A model generated the notes under the pieces. That model did not search any database and had not been told where the DNA came from. It was given only the letters and a program-made list of their open reading frames with translations. Of a stretch of 44,727 nucleotides of DNA, positions 2,778-22,727 are shown one piece after another. Positions within the stretch are counted from its first letter, which is position 1. Each line of letters begins with the position of its first letter. Location: NCBI GenBank assembly GCA_025449645.1, contig JANWIY010000056.1, positions 1-44,727 on the forward strand, read 5' to 3'. Position numbers and translations under genes: made by a program. This DNA comes from Chitinophagaceae bacterium (GTDB lineage: Bacteria; Bacteroidota; Bacteroidia; Chitinophagales; Chitinophagaceae).

Positions 2778-3756
2778 AATGATGCTGGAATATTTTTATT
2801 TGCCCTTCAACGGCAGATTTATCTATGATTCCGGGATCCACGAGGACGGACTTTGCGCGAAGATCTAAATTGTCCAGGGCAAGCACATAAAGAGAGAACA
2901 AATTACTTCCGCTGCACAATTGGATTCTACCGACACCATCCTGCTGTAAACCCTTCAATTCAGTCCCGATGAGCAAGCCACTCAGGAAAAAGAAATTCTG
3001 CTCTTTTGTACGCACTTTAAAAAGATGACTTACGCGCACCGAGAACAAACTGTTTAAAAGATTTGACATGCCGGATTCAATAATACCTGATCTGAACGCA
3101 TCCCTGGCGTCATTGTCGAGCGGGGGGGCGGATGCAGAAACTGCCTCCTTCAAAATGCTATGCCGGGTCAACAGGTCAAACAGTTCTCCGGTAATATAGG
3201 TTTTGAAATCCACCAGTTTACCTTTTTTTACTTTCACGTGTTTGGAATGGGTGCCGGGGAACAGGCATACCATCTCTCCATTAAAATCAATGCCGGGAAG
3301 GGCGGCCAGTCCGACCATCTGTGTTTCTTCTCCCCTGATCACGTCTTCCCGGGTTCTTATTCCGGATATCAGCATCACTTCATGATTAAAATCTGAGCGT
3401 GGTGCAATAATCTCAATCCTCATGTCCGCGCCGTCCAGTGAAAAGGGCAAGCCGGCATAAGGCAATTCCCGGATGCCAATAGATGAGGAAGCCATCCCTG
3501 AAATCAAAAGAGGGAGACCTGATAATGGAGTGGTTGTTTTTTTACCGAGGGCCTGAACCTGATTTTGCAATACCATCAAACCATAATCCTCGCGGGAAAT
3601 GGGACTTTGTTCCAGGCGGATTTTCCACCGGTTAAACGTTGAGGACATACCCTCTCCGGAAATAATCTCTTCCATAATCTGGCTGGTCCGGACGTCTACC
3701 AGACGCAGGCGAAAAGCGGAAGTTCCCCAATCACAGCTCAGAAAGAAATTGTGCAT
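2767..3756 (-). CDS. dgoK: 2-dehydro-3-deoxygalactonokinase
   Basis: Sugar-acid kinase of 329 aa that phosphorylates 2-keto-3-deoxygalactonate at O6, producing the substrate of the aldolase encoded by the overlapping next gene. The N-terminal ASKHA-type phosphate loop is visible (LSCDWGTSAFRLRL). The DgoK-typical segments are SGMASSSIGIRELPY (about 107-121) and the LFPGTHSKHVKV stretch before ITGELFDLL. I placed the start at the ATG at 3756; a TTG three codons further out is also open but less likely. No transporter or galactonate dehydratase is visible in the window. Confidence 0.86.
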   Translation of the reverse strand: MHNFFLSCDWGTSAFRLRLVDVRTSQIMEEIISGEGMSSTFNRWKIRLEQSPISREDYGLMVLQNQVQALGKKTTTPLSGLPLLISGMASSSIGIRELPYAGLPFSLDGADMRIEIIAPRSDFNHEVMLISGIRTREDVIRGEETQMVGLAALPGIDFNGEMVCLFPGTHSKHVKVKKGKLVDFKTYITGELFDLLTRHSILKEAVSASAPPLDNDARDAFRSGIIESGMSNLLNSLFSVRVSHLFKVRTKEQNFFFLSGLLIGTELKGLQQDGVGRIQLCSGSNLFSLYVLALDNLDLRAKSVLVDPGIIDKSAVEGQIKIFQHHYGR

Positions 3757-4114
3757 AGAAAGCAATTGCAGTTATTTCAGTAAGGCATTCTTCTCAATCT
3801 GCCGAAACGAATCCTGCCAGATGCCTTTCCCAATATGTGAACCTTCGCTTAAGCTTCTGCATGCGACGCGTTCAGCTTTAAGGGTTGAACGAAGATAAAC
3901 CAATAGTTCCTCGCCCGCATTTCAACAATGCCCATGCGTAAACCCGGCGAAAGGGCTGGTCAAATTATTTTATTTGAAGGGACAGGAAACGGGCCGGATC
4001 AATGAGTGGCTTGCTTGCCTTAACTAAGGCGGGTTAATAAGCGGTCTGCATTGCTTAACTCCGGCCAGCAGCAACAGTACTGCCAGAATGAACACGAAGC
4101 CTTATCATATCCGG
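3757..4114. other. Intergenic region between dgoK and ssrA
   Basis: About 360 bases without a credible gene. Open frames here are short, and one on the minus strand runs through the tmRNA itself. The dgoK promoter should lie in the left part, on the minus strand, but no convincing box was found. The right end holds the ssrA promoter. Confidence 0.5.
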
Positions 4115-4146
4115 TTCGTAAAACAGTAAAAAATAAATTAACTTTG
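4115..4146 (+). promoter_or_regulatory. ssrA promoter, Bacteroidota type
   Basis: A -7 element TAACTTTG (4139-4146) fits the Bacteroidota consensus TAnnTTTG. A TTCG at 4115-4118, 20 nt upstream, is a one-base departure from the -33 TTTG. Transcription would begin a few bases before the mature tmRNA 5' end at 4162. Confidence 0.6.
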
Positions 4147-4161
4147 CAGGTTCGATAATCC

Positions 4162-4530
4162 GGGGGTGCCTGGTTTTGACAGCGTAGATCTTTGAAAGAA
4201 TAAGCATGTCGTGCGTTGGATAATTAGCACGTAAATCTGAATATTCAAAATTCAAATGGCAATACTCAGTATGCCATGGCTGCCTAATCAGTGATTAAGT
4301 AGTCATTAGGGCCGCCGGGCAGGTTTTCCTTTTACCAAGCCTTGCCGCCGACTAAAAACAAATAGAGGATGCTGAAACGGAAGGCTGTGACCGTTGCTTA
4401 AGACCATCCAGCTAAGGAGATCATAGGTTTGTTGCGTTCCGGTGGTTTCCCGACAACCAATAAGCAAATAAGCATGTAGAAAGCTTTCGGAGAATATGTT
4501 TGGACAGGAGTTCGATTCTCCTCACCTCCA
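4162..4530 (+). ncRNA. ssrA: tmRNA (transfer-messenger RNA)
   Basis: The RNA rescues stalled ribosomes by trans-translation. The 5' end GGGGGTGCCTGGTTTTGACA is the conserved tmRNA start. Its first seven bases pair with CACCTCC near 4523-4529, with one G-U pair, closing the tRNA-like domain; the T-loop TTCGATTC is at 4511-4518. The tag frame runs 4258-4287 and encodes GNTQYAMAA then TAA, with the degradation signal ending in AA and the Y-A-x-A-A pattern seen in Bacteroidota. CCA is not encoded: the discriminator A is followed by CTT. The mature length of about 369 nt is usual. The 3' end doubles as the attachment site of the element to the right, which leaves the RNA intact. Confidence 0.95.
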
Positions 4531-9151: not shown

Positions 9152-9433
9152 ATGGTAAAATCGTTTGGCTCAAAGGAGACGGAAAAAGTATGGAGCGGCA
9201 AGGGATCTGCAAAGCTACCTCGGCCTATCCAGAATAGGGCATTAGTTAAACTCAGAATTTTAAACAATACCAAGGTATTAGATCAATTAAAAATTCCTCC
9301 ATCCAATCATTTGGAAAAGCTTGGGAAAGACTTAAAAGGCTTCTATTCGATCAGAATTAACGAACAGTGGAGAATAATTTTTAAATGGATTGATGGAAAC
9401 AGTTTTGATGTTGAAATAGTCGACTACCATTAA
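9152..9433 (+). CDS. higB: HigB-type mRNA interferase toxin
   Basis: A 93-aa RelE-superfamily toxin that cleaves mRNA on the ribosome. The pattern KSFGSKETEKVWSG, then LRILNNTKVLDQLKIPPSNHLEKLG, then DLKGFYSIRINEQWRIIFKW and DVEIVDYH is characteristic of the HigB/plasmid-maintenance killer group. The toxin gene precedes the antitoxin gene, the usual HigBA order, with 4 nt between. As cargo of an integrative element it would favour retention of the element, and it may also limit phage growth (family knowledge, not shown here). Confidence 0.92.
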   Translation: MVKSFGSKETEKVWSGKGSAKLPRPIQNRALVKLRILNNTKVLDQLKIPPSNHLEKLGKDLKGFYSIRINEQWRIIFKWIDGNSFDVEIVDYH

Positions 9434-9437
9434 AGAA

Positions 9438-9821
9438 ATGCACATGAAAAATTTACACAACCCTCATCCAGGCGAAATACTGTTGACTGAGTTTATGGAG
9501 CCATTTGAATTGACCAATTACAGACTGGCAAAGGATCTGAATATACCGGAATCCCGAATCGGTAAAATTGTTAAAGGGGAAAGAAGAATAACGGCTGATA
9601 CCGCCCTCCGACTGGAAATGTATTTTGGAATGGACGCCTCTTTTTGGCTGGGTCTGCAAAATGATTACGATTTATTGGAGGAAAAGAGGGTAAAAGAAAA
9701 ACAACCTTTATTAATCAAATTGTATGAAAAGATGACCTCCGGTAGAATTTCTCCTAACCAGCGGATAAAAAGCACCGTAGAAAAATCGGAATTCAAACAC
9801 AAACGATTACATAAGGTTTAA
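9438..9821 (+). CDS. higA: HigA-type antitoxin
   Basis: Xre-type helix-turn-helix antitoxin, 127 aa from ATG 9438 (a second ATG at 9444 is equally plausible). The HigA signature is clear: HPGEILLTEFMEP, then LAKDLNIPESRIGKIVKGERRIT as the helix-turn-helix, then TALRLEMYFGMDASFWLGLQNDYDL. After the domain a basic tail of about 35 residues extends beyond the usual length of around 95-100 aa; it could alter toxin or DNA binding. It should neutralise the upstream HigB and repress the pair. Confidence 0.92.
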   Translation: MHMKNLHNPHPGEILLTEFMEPFELTNYRLAKDLNIPESRIGKIVKGERRITADTALRLEMYFGMDASFWLGLQNDYDLLEEKRVKEKQPLLIKLYEKMTSGRISPNQRIKSTVEKSEFKHKRLHKV

Positions 9822-12301: not shown

Positions 12302-12350
12302 TTTGTGTAACTCAAAAGTTACCTTTATATTTGCGTAACCTAAAAGTTAC
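12302..12350 (+). promoter_or_regulatory. Promoter with two palindromic operators of the SRPBCC/ArsR operon
   Basis: A TTTG at 12302-12305 and TATATTTG at 12326-12333 form a Bacteroidota promoter with a 20-nt spacer. Two palindromes overlap it: GTAAC-TCAAAA-GTTAC (12307-12322) lies between the elements, and GTAAC-CTAAAA-GTTAC (12335-12350) lies between the -7 box and the start codon. Their placement would block RNA polymerase, as expected for an ArsR-type repressor encoded in this operon. The same pair recurs at 16614-16657. Confidence 0.8.
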
Positions 12351-12355
12351 TTAAT

Positions 12356-12805
12356 ATGACAGACAACATCAAACACAAGTATTTCTTTTCCCATCCTCCC
12401 GAACAGGTCTGGGAATATCTGACCAGGGCCGAACTGTTGGAACTCTGGCTCATGCCGAATAATTTCCAGCCCATTCCGGGGCAGGATTTCCAGTTTAAAA
12501 TAAAGCCAATGCCTCAGCTCGATTTCGACGGCATCGTCTATTGCAAGGTGCTGGAAATAGTGCCTTATCAAACGCTTTCGTATTCCTGGAAATCCGGTCC
12601 GGGTAACGGAAAAATCGAACTGGATTCCATAGTGGTTTGGAAACTGATCCCGAAAGACAATGGCACAGAGCTAGTGCTGGAACATACCGGCTTCAGGGGA
12701 TTCGATAATCTTGGTATGTTCTCGGCAATGAATGAGGGATGGTTCAAAAATATACAAAAGATCGCTGAACTCTTAAAAGCTGCAAACCGTGAAACAAAGC
12801 TTTGA
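12356..12805 (+). CDS. SRPBCC (AHSA1-like) domain protein
   Basis: A 149-aa single-domain START/SRPBCC fold protein of the AHSA1 type: N-terminal strand IKHKYFFSHPPEQVWEYLT, then ELLELWLMP, the central YSWKS strand, TELVLEHTGF, and a C-terminal helix EGWFKNIQKIAELL. Such proteins bind hydrophobic ligands; the ligand here is unknown. It is the first gene of the operon and overlaps the ArsR-type regulator gene by 17 nt. That pairing (ArsR regulator with AHSA1 domain) is common in bacteria. The ATG follows the second operator by 5 nt. Confidence 0.88.
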   Translation: MTDNIKHKYFFSHPPEQVWEYLTRAELLELWLMPNNFQPIPGQDFQFKIKPMPQLDFDGIVYCKVLEIVPYQTLSYSWKSGPGNGKIELDSIVVWKLIPKDNGTELVLEHTGFRGFDNLGMFSAMNEGWFKNIQKIAELLKAANRETKL

Positions 12806-13109
12806 TGTATTCCAGGTGGTCGCCGACCCCAGCCGGAGACAGATATTGCGGCTGCTGTTAAAAGACAGCCTGACGATAAACTCATTGGCCGAACATTTTG
12901 ACATGAGCCGGCCTGCCGTTTCCAAACATATAAAAATACTGCATGGGGCCGGGTTTATCTCTATCCAGGACATCGGCAGAGAAAGACATTGCATACTCAA
13001 ACAGGAGGGGTTTGAAAAGTTGCAGGAATGGATAAACTACTTTGATAATTTCTGGCTGTCAAAACTGGAAAAATTAAAATTACTGTTAGCCAACAAACTT
13101 AAAAATTGA
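12789..13109 (+). CDS. ArsR-family transcriptional regulator
   Basis: A 106-aa winged-helix protein with a GTG start inside the end of the previous gene, so translation is probably coupled. The motifs are typical: FQVVADPSRRQILRLLL, then the helix-turn-helix INSLAEHFDMSRPAVSKHIKIL, then the wing with GRERHCIL. No cysteine-rich metal site of the ArsR/SmtB kind is visible, so it belongs to the metal-independent branch linked with SRPBCC genes. I infer that it binds the GTAAC-N6-GTTAC palindromes at 12307-12350 and 16614-16657. Confidence 0.9.
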   Translation: MKQSFDVFQVVADPSRRQILRLLLKDSLTINSLAEHFDMSRPAVSKHIKILHGAGFISIQDIGRERHCILKQEGFEKLQEWINYFDNFWLSKLEKLKLLLANKLKN

Positions 13110-13122
13110 AAATTAAAACAAA

Positions 13123-13590
13123 ATGAAAAAGCAAGACTACACAGCCAGCATCCTGGTCAAAGCCACTGCAAACAAGGCATTCAAAAGCATTAACCATGTT
13201 GCCGCATGGTGGACGGAAAATATAGAAGGCAGTTCCGAAAAACTGAATGATGTTTTTACCATCCAGTTCGGGGAAACCTTTGTAACTATGAAAATAGTCG
13301 AATCCGTTCAGGACAAAAAGGTCGTTTGGAATGTCACCGACTGTTGGCTCCCGTGGCTGTCTGACAAGAAAGAATGGAAGGGCACCCGGATCGTCTTTGA
13401 AATATCCGCTGAAGGGGATTCAACCAAGGTCCAATTTACGCATGTCGGATTAGAGCCCCAGGTAGAATGTTATGACACTTGTGTAAAAGGCTGGAACCAA
13501 TATTTTAAAGACAGTTTGGCCATGCTGATAAACGAAGGTAAAGGGCTCCCGCAAAGAAAAGTTATTGCGACCGCGGAAGCAGTTAAATAG
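13123..13590 (+). CDS. SRPBCC domain protein, paralogue
   Basis: A 155-aa START-fold protein: YTASILVKATANKAFKSI, then AAWWTENIEG, VVWNVTDCWLPWL, WKGTRIVFEI, VQFTHVGL, and the C-terminal helix KGWNQYFKDSLAMLI. The pattern (WW near 30, T-R-x-x-F-E, F-T-H-x-G-L, the C-x-x-G-W-N helix) matches the products of 15437-15856 and the second half of 15876-16589 better than that of the first gene of its own operon. These are paralogues of one subfamily. It is the third gene of the ArsR operon, 13 nt after the regulator. Confidence 0.87.
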   Translation: MKKQDYTASILVKATANKAFKSINHVAAWWTENIEGSSEKLNDVFTIQFGETFVTMKIVESVQDKKVVWNVTDCWLPWLSDKKEWKGTRIVFEISAEGDSTKVQFTHVGLEPQVECYDTCVKGWNQYFKDSLAMLINEGKGLPQRKVIATAEAVK

Positions 13591-13649
13591 GTCAGCGTGT
13601 CGGGCCGGAAAAGTCGCCAGGGTGACCTTTGAAATACGGATAGAAATAC

Positions 13650-14287
13650 TTACAGATCTTGTTTATAAAGGCTGCCCAGGTTCGTCAATTTTCGTCCCGT
13701 CCTGTTTTCCGCATCCGTTTTGGCCTGCGTCCTTTCAGCAGGCGTTAGTATCTTTTCAAGGTATTGAATCTCACCAATCATTTGTTGTTGGTCGGGGGAA
13801 AAAAAGTCTCTCTTACCCTCGTTATAAATCAGGAACCACATGTATGACTGTTCGTAATTTATCGGGATGATATCCCCATCCCGGTATATCCGTGCGAGAA
13901 TGGCCCAGGCGGAAGTGATTTTTCCTCTTAAAGTCAGATCATCCGGGTTCGGCATCCTAGCCAGCCGGATTGCCCATATCAGCATACTATCTATGTTCTT
14001 TCCGGTTCCGGTTCCATTCATATAGCAGGTGATCACATTGAAAATACAATCTTCGTCGGCTTGCTCCGCGCACTTTAGTGACCAATAAAATGCCATTTTA
14101 AGGACACTCCATAATTATATTCGGCTTCCGGATTTCCTTTTTCTGGGGCCAGCTTAATGAGTGAAATGGCTTTCTTGTAATCCTGTTTGTTAAGTGCTTC
14201 TTTGGATTGACGGTTGAGTTCATCGGCGGTTTGAGCAGGGAGAGAGTTAGAAAGCAATACCAGGGATAAAAGAAAAACCATTTTCAT
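13650..14287 (-). pseudogene. Secreted Sel1/TPR-repeat protein, frameshifted
   Basis: Two overlapping frames form one gene. From ATG 14287 comes a Sec-type signal (MKMVFLLSLVLLSNSLPAQ) and a TPR-like helix pair (SKEALNKQDYKKAISLIKLA, then GNPEAEYNYGVS). Near 14097 the frame shifts, and the rest continues as MAFYWSLKCAEQ, the second half of a Sel1 repeat, down to 13650. A Sel1 repeat normally has about 12 more residues between these parts, so a short deletion that also shifted the frame is likely. The end of the small frame upstream overlaps the start as ATGA. Confidence 0.65.
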
Positions 14288-14472
14288 ACAGGAAAGGTAT
14301 GCTGTTCATCAATTGTAATTACAATCTCCTCTTCAAGTGCCCTTTTCATCGCGCCGATTTCGTCCTCGGGAACAGCATATTTTTTGGCGATGGTCTTCCA
14401 TTTGGCGACCGGAAACCGGACCCTTTTAAGACGGCGCTGAGTCAGGCCTACCCCCAATGCCCTGCCATCCAC
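14284..14472 (-). pseudogene. Possible gene-end remnant (62 codons)
   Basis: The open frame overlaps the end of the WxxGxW gene and stops in an ATGA overlap with the Sel1 gene. The part RFPVAKWKTIAKKYAVPEDEI (written here with its flanks trimmed) looks like the last helices of a larger protein, in the style of HipA C-termini, with no matching upstream part. I do not recognise it with confidence; it may be the tail of a gene whose body was lost. Confidence 0.3.
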
Positions 14473-14741
14473 TTCCAGCCGTACTGGGTATTTTGCCAGT
14501 GGCCTTCATGCCATGAACGACCCTCCCGACGACGCTCCCAGTGGCCCTCGCGCCAGTGGTAACCGCCCCCTGACCAGATCCAGTCTCCGCTGATCCAGAT
14601 GTGTTGAGGACTAGGTGAAGCAGGCCTTACATAAACTACTTCCGCAGGTCGCTCTCTCACAACATATCTTTCACGCACCACACAGGATGCAAAGGACAGA
14701 AAAACAAAGAATGCAACGAAATAAGGTAAGCGATTTTTCAT
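14448..14741 (-). CDS. WxxGxW (YXWGXW) repeat lipoprotein
   Basis: A 97-aa exported protein. A signal sequence ends in the lipobox-like FASC at residues 17-20. Aromatic repeats of the WxxGxW type follow: WISGDWIW, YHWREGHWE, SWHEGHWQN and WKWMAGHWG. Proteins with these repeats are common in Bacteroidota and Proteobacteria envelopes; their role is unknown. It is complete, unlike the genes on both sides. Confidence 0.85.
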   Translation of the reverse strand: MKNRLPYFVAFFVFLSFASCVVRERYVVRERPAEVVYVRPASPSPQHIWISGDWIWSGGGYHWREGHWERRREGRSWHEGHWQNTQYGWKWMAGHWG

Positions 14742-14828
14742 GATGAGGACCTTTTGAATAATAAAGTAAGAAACGTTCTTCTTTGCCGGATATTATTCTT
14801 AAGTTCCTAAAAACTATAAGGTTTAGGG

Positions 14829-15125
14829 TCAATTAACCGGTGCATAACAAAACGAAGAGACATAGATATAGGGATGATGGATATTGATTGCGTTTAAATT
14901 TCCGTCCCCGCTTCCAATATAAACGTATCCCTTACGGATGAGGGGAGATGAAAATATTTTACCCTTAGTTTTAAATTTCATAAGCACGTTCCCAAAGGAA
15001 GCATAATTCTTTAACGTATAAATTCCTGTATGTTCTCCGCCCTGGTGAAAGGAATTCGCCGAATCCTCTTGGCAATAAACAGAACAACTAATCATAACTG
15101 CAATAAGAAAAAATGTTATTTTCAT
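14829..15125 (-). pseudogene. Fragment of a PQQ-type beta-propeller protein
   Basis: Starting at ATG 15125 there is a signal peptide (MKITFFLIAVMISCSVYCQ), about 40 residues, and a single propeller blade, KFKTKGKIFSSPLIRKGYVYIG followed by SGDGNLNAI. This is the strand-loop pattern of PQQ-like repeats, which normally come in seven or eight copies. The frame then ends, so this is either a severely truncated gene or a 5' remnant. It may still be expressed as a small secreted peptide. Confidence 0.55.
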
Positions 15126-15168
15126 AAATTCCATTTATTCATTTTAAGTTAGTACTTCTTTTTGAGTT

Positions 15169-15360
15169 TTATCGGTTGAATATAAGAGAAGAGGTAAAAC
15201 TAAATTTAGCAAATTGATCATAATGATGTCCCATGCCTGTTTCATGAAAAACAAGCTGACCGATCAACAGACTGAAACTAATGCCGATAGCCAGACAGAA
15301 AACATTGAATGCCGAAAAAATCTTAGGTCGGCTGAACTCCTGAAAGCGATGACGAGGTAG
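15169..15360 (-). pseudogene. Remnant of an FtsX/MacB-type permease N-terminus
   Basis: One frame without a start codon reads PKIFSAFNVFCLAIGISFSL, then LLIGQLVFHE. This matches the first membrane helix and following segment of the FtsX-like ABC permeases that Bacteroidota carry in many copies. It stops after 63 codons, and no more of the protein is present in any frame. It is most likely a decayed fragment. Apart from it, 15135-15436 shows nothing else. Confidence 0.45.
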
Positions 15361-15436
15361 TTTTTGAACATAGATCTTCCTGGTTCTCTATGCATAATTT
15401 CCGTGAAATAACAGGAAAACACTGTTCATTACCCTA

Positions 15437-15856
15437 TCAAAATTCCTCAATATTTAGCCTTGCTGCAAACATTTCCTTAAGCGTCATATCGCATATTTGA
15501 ACTAATTTTTCTACTTCATTTTCCAGAACAATGCCATCATAGGTAAATTCGATCAGTGTATTTTCTGCTTTCGGCGTTAACTCAAAAATGAACCTAGTGC
15601 CCGTCCAATCAAAGTTGTCCGCTTTGCGTATGCTTTCTGTTGTAAGCCAAACAAGTTTTTTACCTGGCTCAAATTCGACAACTTTGTTTTTTGAATAATG
15701 CCCTTCGCCGGTCTTAAATACAAACTCCGTATCAGGTCTTATGCCTTCCCCTATATATTCTTCCGGCCACCATGTAGTGAGATCAATTACCTGATTAAAA
15801 ACATAATTGGGAGAAAACGGAACTTCAATGCTTGTTGTGTAAATATGATTTTTCAT
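15437..15856 (-). CDS. SRPBCC domain protein, paralogue
   Basis: A 139-aa START-fold protein. I chose the ATG at 15856 because the strand YTTSIEVPFSPNYVFN begins right behind it; the longer open frame adds 17 residues and overlaps the gene upstream. Motifs shared with its paralogues are LTTWWPEEYIG, HYSKNKVVEFEPGKKLVW, WTGTRFIFEL and LIEFTYDGI. It lies 19 nt behind the YCII-SRPBCC gene and is probably cotranscribed under the duplicated-operator promoter. Confidence 0.85.
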   Translation of the reverse strand: MKNHIYTTSIEVPFSPNYVFNQVIDLTTWWPEEYIGEGIRPDTEFVFKTGEGHYSKNKVVEFEPGKKLVWLTTESIRKADNFDWTGTRFIFELTPKAENTLIEFTYDGIVLENEVEKLVQICDMTLKEMFAARLNIEEF

Positions 15857-15875
15857 CGCTATGATATAATCGCGG

Positions 15876-16589
15876 TTATAAATCAAAATGCGGCTTACCA
15901 TGAGCAATAAAGTTGAATAACCATTCTTTTATTACCAGATTCCATCCTTCTGAGCACATGGCATAACTCTCCTTTTCAGGCACAAGGCCTTCATGAGTAA
16001 AGTGAAGAATAGAAGAATACCCGGTGGGGACTATCTCAAAAATCATTCTTGTATTTGTCCATTCATTCTGAGTTTTTAGCCAGTTGAGTTTACTTTCCTC
16101 GACACACCAGACTATTTTTTTATTCTGAATAACTTCTGTTAATTTCTGTTTTGAATAGTGTGTACCCGGATGATTGATGATAAACTCATCATTCAAACTA
16201 AAACTTTGTCCGGTATAGTCTCTGCCGCCCCACCACTTTGGAACCTCTCGGGTAATGCCCCTGAAAACTTCTTCAGGCGATTTAGGTATTTCAATTGTAA
16301 CATTATAGCTTTTGTCTGTCATATACTCGGGTAGCAGGCTATCATTCCAGTCCCTGATAACAAATGACTTTACAAGACCCTCCAGTATGAATGGATCTTC
16401 CCTTACAAATTGTTCGGCTGTCACCCGGTTTTTGAAGATGGCCATGTTTCCCATGTCACCGAATGGCCCAATACCGATCACCTCATTTTTGGCGATATAT
16501 TTATCTACAATGGCTTTGTGTCTTGGATAGACATTCATAATGGCTTCCATGGTAGCACCTGAGGATTCTCCAATAACTACTGCTTTCAT
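15876..16589 (-). CDS. YCII-SRPBCC fusion protein
   Basis: A 237-aa two-domain protein. Residues 1 to about 88 form a YCII-like ferredoxin-fold domain (MKAVVIGESSGATMEAIM, IGIGPFGDMGNMAIF, AEQFVREDPFILEGLV). Residues 92-237 are an SRPBCC domain with PKWWGGRDYTG, HYSKQKLTEV, WTNTRMIFEI, LHFTHEGL and the CSEGWN helix. YCII domains carry a conserved His/Asp pair in many family members; the Asp of REDPF is present here. Its promoter carries the same palindromes as the ArsR operon, so the two units should share regulation. Confidence 0.85.
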   Translation of the reverse strand: MKAVVIGESSGATMEAIMNVYPRHKAIVDKYIAKNEVIGIGPFGDMGNMAIFKNRVTAEQFVREDPFILEGLVKSFVIRDWNDSLLPEYMTDKSYNVTIEIPKSPEEVFRGITREVPKWWGGRDYTGQSFSLNDEFIINHPGTHYSKQKLTEVIQNKKIVWCVEESKLNWLKTQNEWTNTRMIFEIVPTGYSSILHFTHEGLVPEKESYAMCSEGWNLVIKEWLFNFIAHGKPHFDL

Positions 16590-16613
16590 TTTTTTGACTT
16601 TTTATTTAAATAA

Positions 16614-16660
16614 GTAACTATTAGGTTACCCAAATGTATAAGTAACTTTTGAGTTACAAA
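16614..16660 (-). promoter_or_regulatory. Promoter with the same two palindromic operators
   Basis: The plus strand shows GTAAC-TATTAG-GTTAC (16614-16629) and GTAAC-TTTTGA-GTTAC (16642-16657). Read on the minus strand, a TTTG precedes one palindrome and a TACATTTG -7 box lies between the two, the same order as at 12302-12350. It drives the YCII-SRPBCC and SRPBCC genes. Confidence 0.8.
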
Positions 16661-18466: not shown

Positions 18467-19573
18467 TTACCGGACCTTCCAATAAGCTTCGCTGCCTGAT
18501 TTCCTCTCATCTGTGGCTTTTACCAGCAGGGTATCTCCTTTTTTAAGATTCCCGAATATTTCCACACCGCTATCAGTAGTCATTCCCTGGCGTACATCCA
18601 CCCACCCGGCTTTCCCTTGTGTTACTTTAATAACGAATTTTCGCTCAAGGGTTGTTGCAATTGCAGAAGATGGGATCACAAATGATGGGCCGCTGCGTGT
18701 TATGCTTATTTTTGCATAGGCAAAAACCCCGGCTTTCAATAAATGTTTGCTATTGTCAATCTCAAACTCCCAGAGTTCTGTGCGCGTAACAGGATCAATC
18801 GTACCTGTTTTCCGTGTGAGAATTCCGCTAAACTGCCGCTCAGGATATGCATCCACACTGAACAGAATTTTCCGGGCCTTACCTGCAGAGGCAATATACA
18901 TTTCAGGAACCGCAACCCTCAGCCGGAGCGTTTTGTTATTTTGAATGGTTAACAACATCGCATGAACTCCCACTAAAGCACCCGGATCTGCCATGCGGGC
19001 CGTTATCACACCTTCAAAAGGGGCGGTAATATTCAAATACGCCGATACTTCTTTATAAGCCTTTGCTTTTTGCCGGGCCGATTGATATGTAGCGCTGTCG
19101 GACTTCATCTGATCTAGACTGCGTTCCAGATCAACTGGAGCCACAATGCCCGGAGAAGAATTTCGTGATGCCCTGAACAAACGGTCATAATCATCTTTGC
19201 TGGCAGTCCATTTTGCTTTTGCGGCATGTATGGAAGACTCAGCTTCTTCAAATTGTGTATTTACTTCCGGCGCTTCCAGAATTGCCAGGGTTTGCCCTTT
19301 CCGTACTGGGTCCCCGATATCCACCTTCATGGTTTGCACGAAGCCGGATATTTTGGCGTACAGATCTGTCTGTTCATAAGGAAGCAACTCTCCTGGCAAT
19401 TCAATTGTCTTTTTAAGTGTATCGGCCCCTAATATAAATACCGGAACTGTATCTAAAACGGGTGCTTCACTATCAGTCGCTTTCGCGTCCTGTTTTCCAC
19501 TGTTACCACAACCAGCGCAAATGGAGACCACTGTATATAAGGTTAGCGATTTTATAATATTTAAATAGTACAT
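18467..19573 (-). CDS. RND efflux periplasmic adaptor (membrane fusion protein), lipoprotein
   Basis: A 368-aa adaptor of the HlyD/AcrA type. I place the start at ATG 19573, immediately after the stop of the pump gene with one base between; a longer frame is open but overlaps the pump. The lipobox VSICAGC gives a lipid-anchored N-terminus. Barrel-sandwich halves are visible as ISGFVQTMKVDIGDPVRKGQ and NITAPFEGVITARMADPGALV, with a short helical hairpin between. It links the inner-membrane pump (next gene upstream) with the TolC-like channel. Confidence 0.9.
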   Translation of the reverse strand: MYYLNIIKSLTLYTVVSICAGCGNSGKQDAKATDSEAPVLDTVPVFILGADTLKKTIELPGELLPYEQTDLYAKISGFVQTMKVDIGDPVRKGQTLAILEAPEVNTQFEEAESSIHAAKAKWTASKDDYDRLFRASRNSSPGIVAPVDLERSLDQMKSDSATYQSARQKAKAYKEVSAYLNITAPFEGVITARMADPGALVGVHAMLLTIQNNKTLRLRVAVPEMYIASAGKARKILFSVDAYPERQFSGILTRKTGTIDPVTRTELWEFEIDNSKHLLKAGVFAYAKISITRSGPSFVIPSSAIATTLERKFVIKVTQGKAGWVDVRQGMTTDSGVEIFGNLKKGDTLLVKATDERKSGSEAYWKVR

Positions 19574-19574
19574 A

Positions 19575-22500
19575 TTATCTGATATCATAATTTTTGCTGT
19601 TTTGATCATCCGGATCCAGGGATACGGGTGTATATTTCTTTCTGCCTATCAGCCATTGATATATATGGGGAAGAAAAAACAAAACGCTGAAAGCCGAAAA
19701 AATCATTCCACCGATCACCGCAATTCCCAGCGGCGCCGTCTGGTCGCCGCCTTCTGTGAGCCCGAGGGCCATTGGCAGCATACCAGCAATCATAGCGGCG
19801 CTGGTCATCAGGATGGGACGCAAGCGATTGGCAGCAGCTGCCAGATGCGGTGAAGAGTCTTGGGATTTCCTGGAATATTCTGCGCTTGTAATGAATAAGA
19901 CTGCATTCGCAATTGCTACCCCTACAGCCATGATCGTTCCCATATAGGATTGTATATTCATGGTTTGACCAGTAATAAACAGCATGAGCAGGGATCCTGC
20001 AATTACCGAAGGTATGATTGATAAAGCCACTACGGCTACCCGGAATGACTGAAAATAAATGGCCATAGCCAGAAAAATAACAAGGACGGCCACGAGTAAA
20101 CCGAACTGCAGGCTTTGCAGCGTCTGCTGAAGTAACTCCGGCTGACCACGCAATAATATTTTCGCACCGTTAGGCAGGCTGCCCATATCCGAAATGGCCT
20201 GACGCACTTCTTTGAAAACAGCTCCCCTGTCATTTTGCTGGATATTAGCGGTAATGGTTATATAGCGCTGTTGATTCAGGCGGTCATATTCCCCAGGAAT
20301 GGTCGTATGTTTCCAGCTGGCTACTTCGTTCAGATAATGCGTTCTTCCACCTGTGCCGGATGATACCGGGATCGCTTCCAATTGGGCTGTGCTGTTCATT
20401 TGGTATCCTGGATATGCCACCTGTACCTGGTAAGCAGTTCCTGAGGTTTTATCAAGCCAATAACTTGGAGTAGTAAACCTGCTGGAGGAGGTAGCAGCGA
20501 CAGTGGAATTTGCAATCTGTGTACCGGAAATGCCCAATTGGCCTGCCCGGACACGGTCGATATCAAGTTGGATCGCCGGGTAATCAAGCGGTGTTGCTAT
20601 CTGCAGATCCCTTAATGCTGATATGCCAGCTAATTTTTCCAATAATTTTTGTGCCGTTTTTTTCCCTTCCTCCAGATTCCTGTTTGCGACGGCTATTTCT
20701 ACCGGACTTGTACTTCCCAGGCTGAGCACCTGTTCTACGATATCCCCTGGTTCAAAAGACATTCTGATGCCGGGCATTTCCCTTGCAACAGCGGCCCTGA
20801 GCTGCTCTCGGAATTTTTGAATTGGAATTGTACCAGGCTTAAGCCTGATCTTGGTAACCGATTCATTCGGACCGCTGGTCCATAAGTAAATATAATTAAC
20901 AGGGTAACTCGAGGGCTGAGTTCCTACGAAAGCGGATGTTATTTCTACATTTCCTTTGCCTGCAATGCGTTCAGTAAGTGTTAATAATTTCCGCGTGGCA
21001 TCTTCGGTACGTTCAAACCGGGTACCCACGGGCAGGCGTAACCGAACCTGGGCCTGTCCGCTGTCAGTCTGCGGAAATAACTCAGTTCCGGTGTAGGTAA
21101 AAATCAATACTCCCAGGCCAACGGCAATAAGAATAAAAAGACTGCTGAGAACACGGTATTTTGCTTTGAACCGTTCTCCTCCTTTAATGTATCGAGTCCT
21201 GAACCGTTCAAACCGGCTTTGCGTTCCCGGATCCTTCCTAACAGTCAGGTGACGCATCAGCATCCAGTCGGAAACCACAGGTACAAAGGTTTGGGAGAGC
21301 AGAAAAGAGGAGATCATGGCAAACCCTACGGCGAGAGACAGGGGCATGAACATCGCCCGGGGTATTCCAGACATGAATATGGCGGGCACAAAAACAGCCA
21401 GAACACTAAGCAGGATAAGCAATTTTGCACCTGCAATTTCTTTGCAGGCATCAGAAATTGCACGCGCCCTGTTCTTGCCCATTTCCATATGTCTGTGTAT
21501 ATTTTCGATGGTAACCGTTGATTCATCCACAAGGATTCCAACGGACAACGCAAGACCACCCAGTGTCATAATATTAATAGTCTGACCGGTTAGATAAAGC
21601 AAGGTAGCCGCAGAAAGCAAAGCCAAAGGGATGGTCATTATTACAATCAAAGCGCTGCGTTTATCGCCGAGGAACAGGAGTACCATAAGGCCGGTAAGAA
21701 TTGCTCCTAAACCTCCTTCGAATAACAAGCTTTTGAGTGAATTGATTACATAGCCGGACTGGTCAAATTCATAAGTTACTTTTATGTCTGAAGGGATCGA
21801 TGCCTGCATATCCGGCAATGCGGCTTTCACTCTTTTTACCACATCCCAGGTGGAGGCATCTGCTCGCTTGGTTACCGGAATATATACAGATCGCTTTCCG
21901 TTTACCAGAGCATAGCTGGTCGTGATATCCGTTCCCATACTCACGGTTGCAATGTCCCTGATATAGACAACGGGGCCGCTTTTTAATTGCATAGGAATGT
22001 TCTGCAAATCCTGTAATGTTTCGATTACACTATTCTGAGGAGTTATAAAAGTAGTATCGCCAATGCTAACATTGCCGGCAGGCGAGATACTGTTGAACCT
22101 GACCATTGATTGAACCACCTGGTCCGGTGACAAATCATAACCGCGCAATTTTTCGGGGTCGACGGTTACAACGACTGTTTTTTGATTTCCACCGAAAGGA
22201 GGAGGCGCAGAAACACCTGGTAAGGTTGAGAACATCGGACGCACGCGGAACAAAGCAAGGTCAGAAATCTCTCCTAAAGAGCGGGTGTCTGATCTGAACA
22301 CTAACTGACCAACGGGAACACTGCCTGCATCAAAACGGGTGATGAATGGTGGTACGGTGCCGGGTGGCATGAAAGCCCTGGAGCGATTTACATACCCTAC
22401 CACTTCAGCCATCGCCTGGCTCATGTCGGTTCCTTCGTTGAATTCTATCTTGATCAGGGCGGCTCCCTGAATGTTCCTGGAATCTACATATTTGACTCCT

Positions 22501-22727
22501 GTGATGTAAAGGAAATGGTATTCGTAATAAGAAGTAACAAATCCTTCCATTTGTTCTGGCGACAAGCCTCCATATGGCTGGGCAACGTATACAGTAGGGA
22601 TTCCGAGGCGCGGAAAGATATCAATCTTTGAATTGCGGATGGCCATGTATGAAAAGAAAACAATGGCAATTACTGTTACCAGAATCGTTATCGGGTGCCG
22701 TAACGCCGCAACAATTAATTTTATCAT
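19575..22727 (-). CDS. RND multidrug-type efflux permease
   Basis: A full-length RND pump, 1050 aa, with 12 membrane segments and two periplasmic loops. It begins IKLIVAALRHPITILVTV and carries FPRLGIPTVYV, PGTVPPFI (porter domain), the TM4 proton-relay aspartate in ALSVGILVDESTVTIEN, and the second half with FLAMAIYFQSF and AVGVAIANAVLFI. The overall pattern is closer to drug/hydrophobic-compound pumps (HAE type) than to the metal pumps encoded at 29888-33135. It forms an operon tolC-like - pump - adaptor - methyltransferase. Confidence 0.93.
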   Translation of the reverse strand: MIKLIVAALRHPITILVTVIAIVFFSYMAIRNSKIDIFPRLGIPTVYVAQPYGGLSPEQMEGFVTSYYEYHFLYITGVKYVDSRNIQGAALIKIEFNEGTDMSQAMAEVVGYVNRSRAFMPPGTVPPFITRFDAGSVPVGQLVFRSDTRSLGEISDLALFRVRPMFSTLPGVSAPPPFGGNQKTVVVTVDPEKLRGYDLSPDQVVQSMVRFNSISPAGNVSIGDTTFITPQNSVIETLQDLQNIPMQLKSGPVVYIRDIATVSMGTDITTSYALVNGKRSVYIPVTKRADASTWDVVKRVKAALPDMQASIPSDIKVTYEFDQSGYVINSLKSLLFEGGLGAILTGLMVLLFLGDKRSALIVIMTIPLALLSAATLLYLTGQTINIMTLGGLALSVGILVDESTVTIENIHRHMEMGKNRARAISDACKEIAGAKLLILLSVLAVFVPAIFMSGIPRAMFMPLSLAVGFAMISSFLLSQTFVPVVSDWMLMRHLTVRKDPGTQSRFERFRTRYIKGGERFKAKYRVLSSLFILIAVGLGVLIFTYTGTELFPQTDSGQAQVRLRLPVGTRFERTEDATRKLLTLTERIAGKGNVEITSAFVGTQPSSYPVNYIYLWTSGPNESVTKIRLKPGTIPIQKFREQLRAAVAREMPGIRMSFEPGDIVEQVLSLGSTSPVEIAVANRNLEEGKKTAQKLLEKLAGISALRDLQIATPLDYPAIQLDIDRVRAGQLGISGTQIANSTVAATSSSRFTTPSYWLDKTSGTAYQVQVAYPGYQMNSTAQLEAIPVSSGTGGRTHYLNEVASWKHTTIPGEYDRLNQQRYITITANIQQNDRGAVFKEVRQAISDMGSLPNGAKILLRGQPELLQQTLQSLQFGLLVAVLVIFLAMAIYFQSFRVAVVALSIIPSVIAGSLLMLFITGQTMNIQSYMGTIMAVGVAIANAVLFITSAEYSRKSQDSSPHLAAAANRLRPILMTSAAMIAGMLPMALGLTEGGDQTAPLGIAVIGGMIFSAFSVLFFLPHIYQWLIGRKKYTPVSLDPDDQNSKNYDIR

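Follow-up and report, generated by a model that had tools for sequence, protein, structure and literature searches.

The coupling of an ArsR-type regulator to an AHSA1/START protein is a known kind of module. Makarova et al. (2009) predicted ArsR-COG3832 (Aha1) as a two-gene module with 280 neighbourhoods, and their survey leans to a role in stress or antibiotic resistance (PMC2701414). In this report, we describe a system of this kind in a 44,727-nucleotide (nt) stretch of DNA from a Chitinophagaceae bacterium of the Bacteroidota (contig JANWIY010000056.1, assembly GCA_025449645.1, 86% complete), called the window throughout, in which two promoters with twin copies of the palindrome GTAAC-N6-GTTAC precede genes for AHSA1-type (SRPBCC) proteins and, at one promoter, an ArsR of 106 amino acids (aa). 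As in the predicted module, an ArsR without metal motif adjoins an AHSA1/START protein, and several copies occur per genome; in contrast to that account, which concerns strictly unique pairs and in its accessible text gives no operator, regulon or recognition rule, operator units without an ArsR exist here (PMC2701414).

Rv2034 is an ArsR encoded in an operon with a polyketide_cyc2 gene; it represses itself and has a footprint at GTAAGT-N4-ACTTAC (PMC3338718). The Rv2034-Rv2036 system resembles that of the window in its polyketide_cyc2 partner and in the 5-N6-5 layout, with C changed to G at base 5, but it has a single palindrome instead of a twin one and belongs to a different phylum and promoter type. 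SdpR-family proteins are likewise short ArsRs without a metal site for which autorepression is expected; the window ArsR, however, is not a member, scoring 56.8 bits against the SdpR autorepressor model NF033789 with its cut-off of 100 bits. NolR, the regulator of nodulation genes, is another ArsR with a likeness to ours. It shares the winged-helix ArsR fold (PDB 4omy), and its residue Gln56, which makes base-specific contacts to A or T, is aligned with R41 of the window ArsR (ungapped alignment ranges place R41 at chain index 56 of NolR), whereas its operator consensus is (A/T)TTAG-N9-A(T/A) (PMC8960804). Residue-base correlations, the type of result reported below, have been described for the MerR and IclR families (PMC5045206, PMC8222616), and ArsR is not named in the titles or abstract openings of these studies. 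In the accessible text of the literature searched, we found no account of a four-residue ArsR code or of a double operator; while the kind of module is already known, the twin-operator promoter, the AHSA1 units without an ArsR and, above all, the four-residue code are apparently new. We judge it probable (about 0.8) that the window holds part of an ArsR-repressed twin-operator regulon whose DNA address is set by four residues of the recognition helix, and that other ArsR-AHSA1 pairs of this genome probably act as separate channels.

Results

Twin palindromes at two facing promoters

The palindrome GTAAC-N6-GTTAC occurs exactly at 12307, 12335, 16614 and 16642 of the window; with one mismatch allowed, the window has four matches versus 0.63 expected, a number reached in 1 of 100 shuffles. 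The palindromes stand in pairs at two convergent promoters about 4.3 kilobases (kb) apart, 28 base pairs (bp) from start to start, with TAtaTTTG (12326-12333) or TAcaTTTG (16638-16631, minus strand) between them. A sequence-only reading of the window had pointed out these duplicated palindromes, their 28-nt spacing and the intervening TAnnTTTG; all four palindromes are exact, and the observation is confirmed as real and well beyond chance. The features concerned are as follows.

12302..12305, plus strand: promoter 1, -33 TTTG element (sequence reading)
12307..12322, plus strand: promoter 1, operator 1, GTAACTCAAAAGTTAC (palindrome and double-site scans)
12326..12333, plus strand: promoter 1, -7 box, TATATTTG (sequence reading)
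12335..12350, plus strand: promoter 1, operator 2, GTAACCTAAAAGTTAC (palindrome and double-site scans)
12356..12805, plus strand: AHSA1/SRPBCC protein 1, 149 aa, ATG 5 nt after operator 2 (PF08327, 67.7 bits)
12789..13109, plus strand: ArsR regulator, 106 aa, GTG start (PF01022, 54.4 bits)
12909..12926, plus strand: recognition-helix codons R41 P42 A43 V44 S45 K46, of which R41, P42, A43 and K46 are the code residues
13123..13590, plus strand: AHSA1/SRPBCC protein 3, 155 aa (PF08327, 32.2 bits)
16657..16660, minus strand: promoter 2, -33 TTTG, its G doubling as operator base 1 (sequence reading)
16642..16657, minus strand: promoter 2, operator 1, GTAACTCAAAAGTTAC, same letters as 12307-12322 (palindrome and double-site scans)
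16631..16638, minus strand: promoter 2, -7 box, TACATTTG (sequence)
16614..16629, minus strand: promoter 2, operator 2, GTAACCTAATAGTTAC (palindrome and double-site scans)
15876..16589, minus strand: YCII-like domain fused to AHSA1/SRPBCC, 237 aa (AHSA1 24.5 bits, YCII 21.5 bits)
15437..15856, minus strand: AHSA1/SRPBCC protein 4, 139 aa (AHSA1 21.1 bits); from reading the frame, its start is most likely the ATG at 15856

Double sites in the genome, its relatives and the phylum

Single palindromes are not enriched genome-wide (7 places versus 10 for the reversed pattern), and the single palindrome was rejected as a regulon marker on this count. Six of the seven fall in three double sites with 12 bases between the palindromes, whereas the reversed double pattern does not occur; the seventh lies inside a coding frame (locus L009, position 3549, open reading frame 2927-4213). 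Two double sites are those of the window, and the third (contig C76, 4915-4958) precedes genes for an SRPBCC protein, an ArsR 77% identical to the window ArsR, an alpha/beta hydrolase and, by reading, a dihydrofolate-reductase-like protein. The paired-site search proposed by the sequence-only reading enlarged the picture: where that reading had assumed one regulator and two units, the regulon as read from this 86%-complete assembly is one of three units and two regulators, and the two GTAAC regulators should cross-regulate. A shortened Crp/Fnr-like regulator frame (by reading; C76, 4574-4918) abuts the third double site.

Among 58 genomes (own included), 24 double sites were found in 18, with none for the reversed pattern. 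An ArsR is in the operon at 16 of the 24; the other eight are the window site at 16614, one each in genomes G022, G005 (near a contig end, the operon seen in part), G024 and G010, and three in G030. At seven of these eight sites the downstream genes are AHSA1-type, and at the other the downstream gene is SnoaL_5; relatives of this SnoaL_5 gene stand third in four operon chains (one, at L103, checked as SnoaL_5). The orthologous ArsR group comprises 25 proteins, 57-99% identical and well set apart (next best 47%). For 22 of them, a double site with 0-2 mismatches and a period of 28 bp (19 cases) or 26 bp (3 cases) lies about 450-480 bp upstream of arsR, before the SRPBCC gene; the remaining three comprise one with a worn pair and two with a single palindrome directly before arsR. 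At two loci an intact double site precedes a damaged gene: in L152, from about 4600, the first SRPBCC start and arsR are in one frame, an apparent internal-deletion fusion, and in L125, near 362, the SRPBCC gene is interrupted after about 25 codons.

A scan of one genome per species gave at least 117 stretches, and among the 80 listed, 79 are titled as Bacteroidota taxa and one as 'uncultured bacterium'. These 80 and the relatives together yield 92 distinct double sites, to which the following counts refer. An AHSA1 or ArsR match lies within the first two downstream genes at 81; on inspection, nine of the other 11 open with an AHSA1 frame (one broken, two cut by the locus end), so that 90 of 92 lead into AHSA1 (SRPBCC) or ArsR-AHSA1 genes, and the last two are the SnoaL_5 gene and L109, which ends after 39 nt, without a downstream gene to judge. 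In 296 phylum-spread genomes (own included; gap 4-34), 34 double GTAAC sites occur in 29 genomes and none for the reversed pattern, and a GTAAG version occurs in three. An ArsR lies within about 1.3 kb downstream in 27 of the 28 loci examined, most of them ArsR-first with a 26-bp period; the exception, L200, has no ArsR and an odd gap. The arrangement, which had seemed unfamiliar, is widespread in Bacteroidota. Of the proposal that the operators mark a regulon, the part resting on the double site stands, as it is rarely found at unrelated genes, while single palindromes occur at control frequency. The double-site units are real, conserved and very probably a regulon, and the ArsR at 12789-13109 is upheld as a likely regulator of it.

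Recognition-helix residues and operator letters

All 101 distinct ArsRs with a GTAAC pair carry K or R at one recognition-helix column, and the four with a GTAAG pair carry Q. A first test set, with the prediction fixed beforehand, consisted of 80 further ArsR paralogues picked by similarity to the window ArsR alone (82 matches following the orthologues were taken in rank order, less one with a stop codon and one at a contig edge; the rest of the longer list was left out). Wherever one of the words GTAAC and GTAAG was found, the residue-46 rule held; neither word, however, stood at 28 of the 36 K46 proteins. Q42 is found in 23 of these 28, and this Q42-K46 group has 15 GCAAC words, one GAAAC, one GCAGT and six without a word. 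A letter-free search for two equal 5-N6-5 palindromes, which found pairs at 60 of the 80 paralogues versus 15 of 1600 shuffles, revealed the second residue. Among words whose base 2 is T or C, P42 went with T in 14/14 and Q42 with C in 38/38 (one Q42 GAAAC lies outside); for words with C or G at base 5, K/R46 went with C in 27/27 and Q/L46 with G in 28/28 (one K46 GCAGT and two V46 GCAAT lie outside).

The two-residue prediction was then fixed for another 59 ArsRs, which came mostly from other families and of which 42 have a pair. This set, meant as 'not family f1', contains a small number of f1 genomes from other genera (G074, G147, G182, G206), and its list excluded one protein with a stop codon, own-genome matches and G243:C6, G145:C13, G164:C3, G148:C5 and G161:C8, the last five because their promoters had entered the data earlier through the pattern search or duplicated such promoters. 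P42 went with T in 10/10; all ten have T43, so that P42-A43 had no retest here. The 32 Q42 proteins with a pair gave 24 C, four T (ATTTG three times, ATTTT once, another register) and four A (GAAAC three times, CAAAA once). At base 5, Q/L46 went with G in 2/2, and K/R46 gave 23 C, three G (ATTTG), 13 T and one A. Twelve of the 13 T cases are GTAGT or GCAGT in T43 proteins (the other is ATTTT), and these failures led to a third residue, with the change from A43 to T43 accompanied by GTAGT/GCAGT.

In the pooled set of 165 distinct ArsRs (168 loci, three identical removed), not chosen by operator, a pair is recognisable at 115 versus 17 of 1650 shuffles. Covariation with the half-site bases was scored at protein positions 5-100 under sequence weighting (an effective number of 58). 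Base 2 varied most closely with P42 (0.63, next 0.18), base 4 with A43 (0.65, next 0.20), base 5 with K46 (0.49, next 0.21) and base 1 with R41 (0.35, next 0.18; weak, with just three non-G cases); at base 3, 114 of the 115 have A. The residue order is collinear with the bases, and in the model the recognition helix carries the code residues in its first turns. By the resulting rule, R41 would specify G at base 1; P42 would specify T and Q42 C at base 2; A43 would specify A and T43 G at base 4; and K/R46 would specify C at base 5, or T together with T43, and Q/L46 G. For the window ArsR (R41 P42 A43 K46), the predicted word is GTAAC. The final rule fits 102 of 109 covered cases, with 6 of the 115 outside it; the seven misfits are four ties (two GCAAC, two GAAAC), one GTAGC for GTAGT and two other registers.

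Since the 165 proteins had themselves served to fit this rule, half-sites were also predicted with training proteins restricted by identity outside the helix, a control that scores only proteins keeping same-residue partners (97 of 115 with the 60% limit and 69 with the 50% limit). Below 60% identity, helix residues were right in 91/97 cases, the nearest neighbour in 35/97 and the commonest word in 3/97; below 50%, the figures were 64/69 for the helix and 8/69 for the neighbour. Where the nearest neighbour has another helix (60% limit), the same-helix protein was right in 49/78 and the neighbour in 6/78. When the helix columns were left out of the tree, the minimum number of changes was 10 for residue 42, 9 for residue 46 and 3 for residue 43, and 11, 10 and 3 for the corresponding bases; concordant rows number 104/105, 111/112 and 110/110 (base 5 C and T pooled). 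Our data suggest that four recognition-helix residues largely predict the DNA word across ArsR relatives.

Several results weigh against so general a rule. For T43 proteins, base 5 was wrongly called in the first held-out prediction, and no pair is recognisable at 50 of the 165 ArsRs. With training at <90% identity the gain is smaller (helix 96/107, nearest neighbour 80/107), and for neighbours with another helix at that limit the same-helix protein was right in only 16/30 and the neighbour in 6/30. The tree is weak, with just 2, 1 and 2 well-supported independent pairs for residues 42, 46 and 43, all concordant; outside Bacteroidota, the code was right in two of four testable R41 cases (helices of L321, L327 and L331 left out).

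The ArsRs of L229, L258 and L259, with the helix SRPTISEH, have no recognisable 5-N6-5 pair, and E46 may read another word.

Relatives outside the Bacteroidota

The plasmid sample comprised 23 loci, fetched from 569 records with a match. An SRPBCC gene is listed near the ArsR in 17 of them and none in two, and annotation is absent in four. Five plasmid ArsRs have R41 with P42 or Q42: two from Streptomyces have perfect GTAAC palindromes and one from Spirosoma (Bacteroidota) a GMAAC pair, and at the Mesorhizobium and Sandaracinus loci the predicted site was not seen. TTAAC palindromes stand at three L41-P42-A43-K46 proteins (two Sinorhizobium, one Nostoc), which suggests that base 1 is set by residue 41; at two Q41-P42 proteins, one of Rhizobium and one of Sulfitobacter, a clear site was not seen.

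Probable further channels in the same genome

The genome encodes five ArsRs of the window kind, all with sites in the TTTG/TAnnTTTG frame. Two R-P-A-K proteins go with GTAAC at three promoters, one R-Q-A-K protein with GCAAC and a variant GCTAC site, one R-Q-A-L protein with a GCAAG pair, the sole such pair in the genome, and one R-P-T-K protein with GTAGT, one of its two sites worn. The three non-GTAAC channels also hold AHSA1 genes, and since their addresses differ, they are probably separate channels, so that several such switches could act side by side in one genome. Insulation is put as likely, no higher, because exact single GTAGT and GCAAC palindromes also occur elsewhere (GTAGT two in the genome, one elsewhere, reversed pattern seven; GCAAC four, three elsewhere, reversed pattern one). 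One GCAAC palindrome (contig C106, 16674-16689), near a short-chain dehydrogenase gene, has the letters of operator 1 of the C77 ArsR and is a possible trans target of the GCAAC channel. Directly upstream of the GCAAG channel promoter lies a protein-3-type AHSA1 gene (contig C62, L422, 803-1261; 191 bits to that family).

Promoter geometry

Ninety-one of the 92 double sites were aligned, one being dropped as less than 45 nt from its locus end. An A-rich stretch and TTTG come first, a single base separates this TTTG from operator 1, three bases lie between operator 1 and TAnnTTTG, and another single base leads to operator 2, behind which the ATG stands, so that the promoter resembles a 28-bp repeat. 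The -7 box has TA in 88/91, TTTG is exact before operator 2 in 71/91 and one nt before operator 1 in 67/91 (orientation was chosen by the boxes themselves, which makes only near-100% values meaningful), and the ATG lies 4-6 bases downstream of operator 2 in 77/91. In flavobacteria, the TAnnTTTG box sits at -12 to -5 (PMC9723704), and for this reason transcription in the window is predicted to start at about 12338, inside operator 2. Since each operator comes after a TTTG, the 28-bp period is the distance between two TTTG elements; promoter geometry would thus explain the spacing, and no unknown cooperative spacing is needed.

Proteins of the probable regulon and neighbouring genes

The window ArsR scores above the ArsR/SmtB cut-offs (PF01022, 54.4 versus 22 bits; NF033788, 66.9 versus 55), and its gene adjoins an AHSA1 gene, as in the ArsR-COG3832 module. 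Its AlphaFold model (17 sequences) has a mean predicted local distance difference test (pLDDT) value of 92.2, with residues 41-54 as the recognition helix, and matches the folds of 3f6v and 3f6o, with NolR 4omy at rank 31. Classical ArsR/SmtB metal motifs are CxC in alpha3 and D-H/H-E in alpha5. Such Cys/His motifs are absent from the 106-aa protein, and classical metal sensing was ruled out for that reason. By reading, its sole cysteine is C68, in the wing. The corresponding position (alignment column 69) is C in 73 of 74 distinct ArsRs with a far-upstream double site (class A); among the 165 unselected ArsRs, 94 have C and 69 have Y, so that C68 is not essential to the family. Thiol sensing through C68 is an attractive possibility. 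PADLOC matches of the ArsR were to Csa3/CARF/CasR-type models and a few weak others, as a common helix-turn-helix would lead one to expect, and the four SRPBCC proteins had none; a defence system was therefore set aside.

The proteins called SRPBCC in the sequence-only reading are indeed AHSA1-type: those of genes 12356, 13123 and 15876 pass the PF08327 gathering score of 22.1 bits, and that of 15437 lies just below it at 21.1. Three of them had been taken for close paralogues, but their identity is just 33-37% (protein 4 is 36% identical to the AHSA1 part of the fusion and 33% to protein 3), and the 12356 protein has no significant alignment to them. For the proposed YCII::SRPBCC fusion, the AHSA1-type part holds, whereas the YCII-like domain misses the PF03795 gathering score (21.5 versus 24 bits); a stand-alone relative of this domain in L157 scores 29.4 bits to YCII.

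Neighbouring genes at the loci inspected include AHSA1, YCII, SnoaL_5, DinB, glyoxalase and DoxX and, on plasmids of other phyla, GFA and glutathione S-transferase, which would point to the handling of hydrophobic or reactive small molecules. Judging from their translations, RND-type efflux pump and membrane-fusion genes lie near the regulon (18467-22727, minus strand), and look-alikes of a HigB/RelE-type toxin and a HigA-type antitoxin are at 9152-9433 and 9438-9821 (plus strand).

Discussion

We propose a model whereby the dimeric ArsR (12789-13109) would bind the GTAAC-N6-GTTAC palindromes, one dimer on operator 1 filling the spacer that separates the -33 TTTG from the -7 TAnnTTTG and another on operator 2 covering the transcription start, and the two bound dimers would shut the promoter, the ArsR's own included. 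Occlusion by an autoregulating ArsR is likely because operator 1 fills the spacer and operator 2 covers the predicted start. The GTAAC address also stands at the YCII-SRPBCC operon 4.3 kb away and at the second SRPBCC-ArsR operon, and the three units would therefore form one regulon, probably read by both ArsR paralogues. Once a small molecule or a reactive compound released the ArsR, the SRPBCC (AHSA1) proteins, which have hydrophobic pockets, and their partner enzymes would be turned on. As the sequence-only reading suggested, the SRPBCC proteins might bind or buffer the small molecule sensed by the ArsR. Binding, repression, any cooperativity and insulation are here proposed from the sites, their geometry, conservation, gene content and covariation.

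The strongest competitor, though an unlikely one, is that the match between operator and residues reflects shared ancestry, with ArsR clades carrying along their promoter clades. The protein is short, the tree weak and well-supported independent switches few, as this explanation would have it; yet at <60% identity the nearest neighbour predicts 35/97 words and the helix rule 91/97, the tree without the helix columns requires no fewer than 10 changes at residue 42 and 9 at residue 46, with rows concordant in 104/105 and 111/112 (base 5 C and T pooled), and GTAAC palindromes also stand at two Streptomyces R-P-A-K/R proteins. It is very improbable that another regulator reads the palindromes and that the adjoining ArsR is a passenger: the lack of an ArsR in the operon at 8 of 24 double sites could be taken that way, but operator letters track the helix residues of the adjoining ArsR across paralogues, also with training at <60% identity outside the helix, and downstream, within about 1.3 kb, an ArsR follows at 27 of the 28 examined phylum-sample loci.

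About as improbable is a toxin-antitoxin-like mobile pair, an interpretation of ArsR-COG3832 raised and doubted in PMC2701414. Its distribution, patchy and multi-copy by our counts and by that survey, would fit, but the operons hold further AHSA1, YCII, SnoaL, DinB and glyoxalase genes, the same operators stand at AHSA1 units without an ArsR, and the survey itself favours stress or antibiotic resistance. We give the least weight of all to the second palindrome being an RNA hairpin in a short leader; operator 2 does overlap the predicted leader, with the ATG 4-6 nt further on in 77/91 sites, but operator 1 has the same letters upstream of the predicted start, several ArsR-less sites have longer leaders, and the palindrome letters change with the ArsR helix.

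Beyond the ArsR-repressed regulon itself, we favour, with moderate confidence, the wider view that a modular code (residues 41, 42, 43 and 46 to bases 1, 2, 4 and 5) runs many insulated promoter-operator copies, and that operators and regulons of thousands of uncharacterised ArsRs may be readable from sequence. ArsR-AHSA1 pairs are common, and to our knowledge few of their operators and ligands have been described. A four-residue operator rule would make ArsR-AHSA1 regulons findable by computer, would show how paralogous repressors escape cross-talk within one genome and would offer insulated repressor-operator pairs for biosensors.

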